Source: Acidobacteriota bacterium (GTDB lineage Bacteria; Acidobacteriota; Aminicenantia; JBFLYD01). Taken from it: a DNA stretch of 55,255 nucleotides. A model generated the notes under the pieces. The model was not told the origin of the DNA and did no database searches. It saw only the letters and a list, made by a program, of their open reading frames with translations. Below are positions 1,210 to 29,223 of the stretch, piece after piece (the stretch's first letter is position 1; each line of letters begins with the position of its first letter). The position numbers were made by a program, and so were the translations under genes. The DNA is taken from contig JBFLYD010000014.1 of the NCBI GenBank assembly GCA_040756905.1, positions 1 to 55,255 of the forward strand, read 5' to 3'.

Positions 1210-1337
1210 TAATACAAAAGCAATAAATAATTTGTAGGGCAACCCTTCAGAGCCTGCCCCGAACTTGATTCGGGGGTTGCTTAATGCAAGGCTAAAGCCT
1301 TGCCCTACATGTCAATTTATTTAATTCGTTTGTATTA
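1210..1337. repeat. Fold-back element B1 (TAATACAAA termini)
   Basis: The 128-bp element is bounded by TAATACAAA (1210-1218) and its reverse complement TTTGTATTA (1329-1337). The inverted similarity extends inward through AT-rich sequence. The core is a palindrome, TGTAGGGCAACCC and AAGCCTTGCCCTACA, around a nested CCCCGAACTTGATTCGGGG hairpin. Near-identical copies are B2 (10422) and B3 (27650). Related termini around different cores are B4 (9629) and B5 (29079). Confidence 0.8.
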
Positions 1338-9628: not shown

Positions 9629-9823
9629 TAATACAAACGAAATTAACAATGTTACATTTACCGTCATTCCTGCAAAAGCAGGAATCCAGACGTCGTCCCC
9701 GCGGAAGCGGGGAACTACATAAAGGAACTGGATTCCCACTTTCGTGGGAAACCCTGGATTCCCGCCTGCGCGGGAATGACAACACTAAATGTCTATGTCA
9801 ACTTACTTAATGCTTTTGTATTA
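9629..9823. repeat. Fold-back element B4 (B termini, GTCATTCC core)
   Basis: It is bounded by TAATACAAACG (9629-9639) and its inverted partner ending TTTGTATTA (9815-9823), the same termini as B1 and B3. The core is unrelated: a multi-palindrome of the widespread kind with CGTCATTCCTGC, GGAATCCAG, TGGATTCCCGC and GCGGGAATGAC (about 9663-9781). It fills most of the 292-bp gap between the acyl-CoA dehydrogenase start and the YjbQ stop. I see no gene in the gap. Confidence 0.8.
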
Positions 9824-10322: not shown

Positions 10323-10772
10323 GAGAGGCCAACCATCCCATTCGCTCAGAATATGATTATCCTCATACTTTATATAGTGACCAGCAAGGGTGACTTCGTC
10401 CCACACTAACTTATTATTACCTAATACAAATGCATTGAATAAATTGTAGGGCAACCCTTTAGAGCCTGCCCCGAACTTGATTCGGGGGTTGCTTAATGCA
10501 AGGCTAAAGCCTTGCCCTACATGTAACAATATTTTATGAGTTTGCTATAAATTAAGGAATTCATAATATCTCTCCTTCAATCACTTAATTTTTTTGGAAT
10601 AAATACAGTTAGTGCAGGAGCACTCATGCTTCGCTCCCCCTCACTTATCCCGCTTCGCATTCGTGACGGTTTTCAGGAACCTTCGGTTTCTCCGCCACCC
10701 TTCCTGCTCACTCCACTTCTTTATAGATTTTGATTCCTTTCGATATATCGTTAAGAAGATGGTTGGCCTCTC
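10323..10772. repeat. Composite element D2 nesting elements B2 and A2
   Basis: A perfect 15-bp terminal inverted repeat, GAGAGGCCAACCATC (10323-10337) and GATGGTTGGCCTCTC (10758-10772), bounds 450 bp. These are D-family arms. Within them lie B2 (10422 to about 10530) and an inverted A core (10613-10713, containing GCATTCGTGACGGTT, CCGAAGG and CCACCCTTCCTGCTCACT). The 10263-10820 gap between YjbQ and the flippase-like gene is almost entirely this structure. Open frames inside it are incidental. Confidence 0.8.
10422..10530. repeat. Element B2 (right end degraded), inside D2
   Basis: The left terminus TAATACAAATGCATTGAAT matches B1 and B3. The palindromic core TGTAGGGCAACCC to TTGCCCTACATGT is nearly identical to B1, including the nested CCCCGAACTTGATTCGGGG. 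The right TTTGTATTA terminus is not recognisable; the sequence diverges after ACATGTAACAAT. Confidence 0.7.
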
Positions 10773-15176: not shown

Positions 15177-15181
15177 TCTCC

Positions 15182-15552
15182 TAGTGTCATGTCACTTAAA
15201 TATCTTTCTTTATTCTTATGTGACATGACACTTTCCCTATGGGAGAAAGATCTCCTTAGACGCTTCGCTGAGCAGCACATAGGAGCCTTTCGGAGAACTG
15301 AAATATCAGAAGAATTAATCACTTCTCTTTTATCCGAAAGGCTCCTAGCACTGCCCTTAAGGGCAGTGTGTAAAAGGTCTTTATTTAAATTTAAATCATC
15401 TATTTCCATGCACCAGAATGGTGCATATAGGAGGGTGCGGAATACATATTCCGACACCCTCCTATGTTCGGGAAAGTTCCTTCCCCATGCCCCTTCAGTG
15501 TGCTTTAGGAGAAATTCTCTATTTACGAAGATATTTATGCGACAGTACACTA
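15182..15552. repeat. Fold-back element C2 with a chain of nested palindromes
   Basis: TA flanks both ends (15182-15183, 15551-15552), with termini GTGTCATGTC and, inverted, GTGTACTGTC. A 13-bp perfect inverted repeat (AGTGTCATGTCAC) opens it at 15183-15195/15220-15232. Inside follow AGGAGCCTTTCGG with its complement, the 20-bp palindrome CACTGCCCTTAAGGGCAGTG, GCACCagaatGGTGC, and AGGAGGGTG...CACCCTCCT. The outer 90 bp on each side match C1, whose centre is a different hairpin. It fills the lon-thiL gap, leaving thiL with no ribosome site. Frames inside are incidental. Confidence 0.82.
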
Positions 15553-27611: not shown

Positions 27612-27649
27612 AATAAATAAAATAGGGACAGCGACTATTTTTTATTACT

Positions 27650-27752
27650 AATATAAAAGCAATAAATAATTTGTAGGGCAACCCTTCAGGGTTGCTTAAT
27701 GCAAGGCTAAAGCCTTGCCCTACATGTCAATTTATTTAATTCATTTGTATTA
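27650..27752. repeat. Fold-back element B3
   Basis: It is bounded by TAATATAAAAGC and its inverted partner ending TTTGTATTA. The core TGTAGGGCAACCC to TTGCCCTACA is as in B1, but the nested CCCCGAACTTG hairpin is missing, giving 103 bp instead of 128. It occupies the GWxTD-DUF72 gap. The rest of 27612-27891 is AT-rich and empty. Confidence 0.8.
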
Positions 27753-29078: not shown

Positions 29079-29223
29079 TAATGAGAATGTATCTAATTTT
29101 AATACATTTCTGCCCCTCACCCTCCCCTCTCCCCCTAAGGGGAGAGGATTAAAGCTTGCCCCGTACTTGATGCGGGGTGAGGGGTAAAAATAGAATGTAA
29201 CAAATATTTGTGCGTTTGTATTA
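29079..29223. repeat. Fold-back element B5 (B-like termini, CCCCTCACCC core)
   Basis: The right terminus is CGTTTGTATTA (29213-29223), as in B1. The left terminus TAATGAGAATGTAT is a diverged form, also seen near 16569. The core is a palindromic CCCCTCACCC...GGGGTGAGGGG enclosing CCCCTAAGGGG and CCCCGTACTTGATGCGGGG. It fills the gap between the NUDIX stop (29075) and the radical SAM ATG (29229). Confidence 0.75.

Follow-up and report, generated by a model that had tools for sequence, protein, structure and literature searches.

Common TA-flanked termini enclose exchangeable REP-type palindromes in an Acidobacteriota genome

A 55,255-nucleotide stretch of an Acidobacteriota bacterium genome, hereafter the window, contains five repeat elements (B1 to B5) in which similar ends surround palindromic cores of three different kinds. 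This raises the question of whether a single mobile frame has captured several repeats, or whether cores and frames have come together in some other manner. A sequence-only reading had proposed one set of termini around three cores, namely CCCTACA/GTAGGG, GTCATTCC and CCCTCACC. The positions of the five elements were verified in the sequence (Table 1), and by the list of open reading frames all five are intergenic, with none covered by a gene-like ORF.

The terminus of these elements, TAATACAAANGNA (F1), is 13 bp long and has 49 + 67 = 116 exact matches in the 2.56-Mb genome, as compared with 3 + 3 = 6 for a reversed control pattern. When up to one mismatch is allowed, the window has 10 matches against a mean of 2.9 and a maximum of 8 in shuffled sequences, and the termini are thus more common than chance in AT-rich DNA would provide. 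We listed 100 of the 116 exact termini, read the stretches surrounding them and paired their ends. A core motif lies within 62 nt on the inward side of 90 of these 100 termini and on the outward side of 5, and among the remaining 10 several carry degenerate versions of these cores, are interrupted by an insertion or match by chance. Chance or convergence in AT-rich DNA could be invoked for a terminus that is simple and AT-rich and that does have some chance copies, such as the six reversed-pattern matches and the coreless matches at C12:21411 and C48:2711. We nevertheless rejected this explanation as having next to no credibility on the basis of the genome-wide count, the window shuffles and the inward position of the cores. 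Additionally, the similarity of the arms extends beyond the search pattern, and in most of 40 genomes from the same class the terminus is at or near the background level of the control. The latter makes orthologous comparison impossible. An entire collection of viral contigs contains six matches.

The extent of the common sequence depends on the class of core. Elements with GTAG and CGTC cores (CCCTACA/GTAGGG and GTCATTCC, respectively) have arms of ~30 bp in common, and the outer ~13 bp are common to all three classes. Over arm positions 14-32, which lie outside the search pattern and for which mononucleotide shuffles served as the null, the comparison of GTCATTCC with GTAGGG elements gives 13.0 versus 8.1 +/- 0.9 for shuffled arms. 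The corresponding value for the CCCTCACC elements is 8.5 versus 7.5 +/- 0.9, which is not significant. These elements, whose core reads CCCCTCACCC (CTCA), have only the terminal 13-14 bp and a TTACAT motif in one arm in common with the other classes. The proposal of shared termini is therefore supported by the terminus counts and by the inward cores, but "one set of termini" is valid over the outer 13 bp for three classes and over ~30 bp for two, with the CCCTCACC class sharing the outer bases only.

Table 1. Repeat elements of the window (window positions) and chimeric elements elsewhere in the genome (contig positions)
Feature	Position	Strand	Description
B1	1210..1337	.	F1 ends on both sides, TAATACAAAAG / TAATACAAACG; GTAG-REP dimer core 1234-1308; fold z -6.6
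M1 module in B1	1251..1274	+	24-bp hairpin AGCCTGCCCCGAACTTGATTCGGG in the loop of the left GTAG hairpin; missing from B3
B2	10422..10549	.	Hybrid: left F1 TAATACAAATG, right F2 TATAGCAAAC; GTAG-REP dimer core 10446-10520; within a larger repeat
B3	27649..27752	.	104 bp; GTAG-REP dimer core 27673-27723, without M1; three-way hairpin fold
B4	9629..9823	.	F1 ends; CGTC-REP dimer core about 9662-9780, additional nested hairpin; fold z -8.7
B5	29079..29223	.	F1 ends, left degenerate and right good; CCCTCACC palindrome core 29113-29184, M1-like hairpin
Chimera	C8:6331-6548		GTAG to CTCA via modules
Chimera	C21:30916-31056		CTCA to GTAG
Chimera	C34:45571		F1 arm to F4 arm via GTAG hairpin
Chimera	C65:73854-73975		CTCA core bearing GTAG-type arm

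Two of the window elements differ from their earlier description. B2 had been considered half-degraded, but it ends on the right in an intact terminus of a second type and measures 128 bp in all, a form that is present in at least 12 copies. GTAG elements with F1 on one side and F2 or F2b on the other number 17. B5 had been assigned the shared termini, which is correct for its right end, while its left end, TAATGAGAATGTA, has three mismatches. The single-strand folds of B1 to B5 are far better than those of shuffled DNA (z -4.5 to -8.7), and the predicted fold of B3 is a frame stem topped by two REP hairpins.

Paired elements number 45 with the CCCTACA/GTAGGG core, 5 with GTCATTCC and 9 with CCCTCACC (plus 2 with an insertion), and these numbers rise once degenerate ends are counted. 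Most REPs fall into two superfamilies that are tagged with GTAG or CGTC (PMC3733652). The CCCTACA core is an inverted, REPIN-like dimer of GTAG REPs. It has GTAG at the foot of a stem in the 7-20 bp range with a short loop (GTAG-G-GCAACCC-TTCA-GGGTTGC and GTAG-G-GCAAGGC-TTTA-GCCTTGC), the inverted dimer occurs in B1 to B3, and a RAYT gene is located at C35. CGTC REPs are characterized by a CGTC/TGTC tag, a stem of 8-9 bp starting with AT, a loop of 4-5 nt, a CCA tail and inverted dimers, and the GTCATTCC core is such a dimer. In B4 the hairpin at 9662 reads CGTC-ATTCCTGC-AAAA-GCAGGAAT-CCA, with an AT-starting 8-bp stem, a 4-nt loop and an inverted partner that carries a TGTC tag. The CCCTCACC core has neither the GTAG nor the CGTC tag and was assigned to no known family. 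A further element with B termini, at C36:5326-5423, has a fourth interior, GATGCTGAAATGAGTTCAGCACTTGTTTCGGAATC, and is joined to a GTAG-cored element via a common TA.

Additional frames were sought by searching for the cores themselves and then reading in context those that lacked a good terminus. This yielded the frames F3 (TATAGTGAACG), F4 (AATTACGCAAGG), F5 (TTAGTTGCATAA) and F8 (TATACTAATGGC), and a few cores were left without a recognised frame. Among cases with a frame on both sides, the GTAG core occurs in F1 (23), F1/F2 (17), F3 (4), F4 (4) and F8 (1), the CGTC core in F1 (5), F4 (2) and F5 (5), and the CTCA core in F1 (11) and F1/F2 (3); the motif thresholds that define these frames were set in this analysis, and F2 and F3 may be related to F1 and have diverged. 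Frame F4 is directly readable around both GTAG and CGTC cores. Since cores occur in several frames and frames contain several cores, core and frame vary independently. The idea of a single frame consequently does not hold, as the same cores are present in at least five types of terminus.

We also considered whether the cores are widespread in other phyla, as had been suggested from their resemblance to common repeats. This is the case for GTCATTCC and CCCTCACC, which occur there without B termini, but not for the exact CCCTACA core. A scan for the CGTC hairpin matched at least 120 stretches. Those among the matches listed come from records labelled Proteobacteria, Desulfobacterota-type groups, Nitrospirae, Bacteroidetes, Chloroflexi, Planctomycetes, Gemmatimonadetes, Latescibacterota, Armatimonadota, Acidimicrobiia, Binatia and Patescibacteria, although many of these records are MAGs in which mis-binning is possible. 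B termini were absent from the CGTC stretches of other phyla that were read. In 11 of 40 CGTC dimers from other phyla, complementarity between the two flanks exceeds the 95% level of shuffled pairs, and some of these dimers therefore lie in other inverted frames. The CCCTCACC...CTCTCCCC palindrome is abundant in Chloroflexi, Binatia, Nitrospirae, Syntrophaceae and one Bacteroidetes MAG, with a control count of zero, and is almost missing from 20 genomes of the same class. None of 60 other genomes and no plasmids contained the exact CCCTACA core; viral contigs have it only as single hairpins in two contigs, and a looser form, GTAGGGGCAACCC, is present at one neighbouring locus (L321). An Rfam search of the window returned one tRNA only, and a literature search by repeat sequence returned unrelated papers only.

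Within the cores there is a second level of variation. The left GTAG hairpin has an inner loop of 6, 30 or 54 nt (16, 17 and 12 copies of exactly these lengths), which corresponds to steps of 24 bp. The first step is CCCGAATCAAGTTCGGGGCAGGCT and the second, CCCATGAAACAAGTTCAGGGCAAG, is sited in the loop of the first module. The CTCA core exhibits the same steps (0, 22-23 and 47 nt) with homologous modules. These quantised classes confirm the gain or loss of modules that had been deduced from the lack in B3 of the hairpin nested in B1. The hairpin of the first module has many matches in viral contigs, with the total being a lower bound. At C43:11183, tandem copies of CCCATGAAACAA are located inside the second 24-bp module.

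Four elements are chimeric, and in two of them the joints fall in shared modules or in a shared GTAG hairpin. These chimeras, together with the fact that no core-less frame was found among the 100 listed exact termini, are what would be expected if recombination alone were responsible, with pre-existing composite repeats having swapped arms or cores by homologous recombination or by template switching in shared hairpins. However, GTAG and CGTC cores have no common sequence that would explain the presence of both in F1 and of both in F4. The 24-bp steps resemble discrete loop insertions or deletions, and CGTC dimers of other phyla tend to lie between complementary flanks. We regard recombination as the sole process as possible but rather doubtful.

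Evidence for mobility comes from the larger repeat in which B2 resides (GAAAACACGCTGTATTTTCCCC ... GGAGCACTCATGCTTCGCTC, window about 10330-10700). B2 is present in most copies of this repeat, and related tracts occur in the window at 75-107 and 1607-1639. A search with the joined flanks of the larger repeat revealed one element-free copy, at C9:46462-46546. The empty site reads ACC-TA-AGTTAAGG and the filled site reads ACC-TA-(ATACAAACG...CGTTTGCTA)-TA-AATTAAGG, so that the TA is precisely duplicated, as a check for target-site duplications had called for. This pair represents either an insertion into a TA target with TA duplication or a precise excision. It is the sole empty site for any B element and concerns the hybrid F1/F2 type. 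Additionally, tandem neighbours have one TA in common (TTTGTAT-TA-ATACAAA). The elements also resemble MITEs in being short (about 90-330 bp), non-coding and bounded by terminal inverted repeats, with at least 62 paired copies. The 69-contig draft genome, searched with the DDE_3 and DDE_Tnp_1 profiles, gave no match for an autonomous partner with the same ends. The lack of any DDE_3 match in the same genome does not favour an assignment to the MITEs of the IS630/Tc1 family, and no transposase of the IS630 or IS4/IS5 type was found in the draft genome. An element may still be a MITE when its partner is missing from the genome in which it resides.

Other mobile sequences are found in association with these elements. 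A second TA-flanked family, TA-TTGTCGTGTCAC...GCACAC-TA, lies inside three CCCTCACC-type B elements at an identical TA, with TA on both sides. Members of this family (TTGTCGTGTCAC...GGGACAGCACAC) are also located in the window at 2383-2587 and 15178-15552 and at C44:68199, C46:5074 and C20:7868. A gene for an IS110-family transposase occupies C23:45-1103 (PF02371, 80 bits; PF01548, 56 bits) and has another copy at C8:28268-28394. Both copies, in different contexts, start immediately after TAATACAAACGCAT and reach contig ends, and this insertion sequence seems to target the B terminus.

The presence of GTAG hairpins raises the possibility that REP/RAYT activity is sufficient, with the frames being variable outer stems of REPINs that are moved whole by the RAYT. 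The genome has four Y1-transposase genes, and that on C35 is a RAYT (NF047646, 108.8 bits, cut-off 80). Directly upstream of it are three near-identical GTAG hairpins (GTAGGGCAAGGC-TTCA-GCCTTGC) that match the B cores, and long terminal inverted repeats are known to flank some RAYT genes (PMC3733652). F1 termini are nevertheless absent around all four Y1 genes, the same termini surround cores that have no GTAG tag, and an exact TA duplication suits a DDE-type rather than a HUH enzyme. An origin from REP/RAYT activity only is consequently unlikely. The Y1 genes at C43:44212 and C45:813 have flanks of the GGGGTCAGGTCTCA type, which match GGGGWSAS, a motif that has been reported in terminal inverted repeats bordering genes of this kind (PMC3733652), and the product of the latter gene has a DnaA-like C-terminal domain.

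The reading that we consider probable is that B elements are MITE-like carriers with a TA target and an exchangeable REP-type palindrome at their centre, moved by a cut-and-paste transposase supplied in trans. Such an enzyme would recognise the terminal 13-30 bp, move the entire unit and duplicate the TA. The centre could be occupied by a GTAG-REP dimer, a CGTC-REP dimer or the CCCTCACC palindrome, and the loops of the central hairpins would gain or lose 24-bp modules. This reading joins the observed common termini, core-by-frame matrix, duplicated TA of the one empty site, steps of 24 bp and chimeras; the existence of the transposase, the way in which insertion proceeded and any activity at present are the parts that we infer. 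Core and frame would have been joined more than once, by insertion of a REP dimer at the centre of an inverted repeat, by recombination in shared modules or by both. Dimer insertion at a palindrome centre is favoured by the existence of several frames, by the steps of 24 bp and by the symmetric flanks seen in other phyla, recombination is favoured by the chimeras and the missing core-less frames, and both may be acting. The notion that common repeats were captured within a mobile frame therefore stands as far as the mobile character is concerned (empty site, TA duplication), while capture of the core by the frame would be one possible direction, given the missing core-less frames and the chimeras, which indicate recombination as another way of bringing cores and ends together.

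Movement of CGTC repeats was left open by the survey that found no transposase accompanying them (PMC3733652). The fact that both types of dimer, CGTC and GTAG, have one TA-flanked frame in common here and turn up again in further frames makes two mechanisms testable, namely hitch-hiking in MITEs and insertion at hairpin centres. It suggests that repeats without a mover of their own could travel inside frames with interchangeable cores. The 24-bp steps in two cores and the partly symmetrical flanks of CGTC dimers in other phyla suggest a general route by which bacterial repeats are built up. A more tentative proposal, to which we give limited weight, is that GTAG and CGTC REP dimers and the 24-bp modules constitute one cross-phylum system that inserts into palindrome centres and loops, with MITE frames carrying and thereby spreading CGTC repeats. 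If true, CGTC repeats, which have no known transposase, would spread within DDE-type elements.

Several known systems share features with the B elements. By description, the Correia elements (CREE) of Neisseria, which are recognised by their terminal sequence and an IHF site, are comparable in being TA-flanked, similar in size and bounded by inverted ends, but they differ in terminal sequence and have a conserved core that is not exchangeable. The small dispersed repeats of cyanobacteria, reportedly described by Elhai et al. in 2008 as very small, hairpin-nesting units some 24 nt in length, are likewise similar by description. GTAG REPs and REPINs with their RAYTs (PMC3116915, PMC3733652, PMC6006769) have the same GTAG at the hairpin foot, inverted dimer and RAYT-adjacent hairpins, whereas most of the dimers found here have TA-flanked terminal inverted repeats around them, and these repeats surround cores of other types as well. 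CGTC REPs, including dRS3 of Neisseria and RPE-4/-6 of Rickettsia (PMC3733652), have the same CGTC/TGTC tag, AT-starting 8-bp stem, 4-nt loop, CCA tail and inverted dimer, but here one MITE-like frame is common to CGTC and GTAG dimers. QMITE2 of Coxiella burnetii (PMC5896051) is a MITE with a GTAG REP as its core and is an IS1111 target, but it has direct repeats of 7-11 bp instead of TA and a single core. Longer inverted repeats with a REP dimer at their middle are known from A. variabilis GTAG-15, H. neapolitanus CGTC-1 and T. roseum GTAG-23, and for the first two of these species, as for the present genome, a dimer-free palindrome was not found (PMC3733652). In those three species there is one REP type per frame, whereas the present genome has three cores in one frame and several frames for one core.
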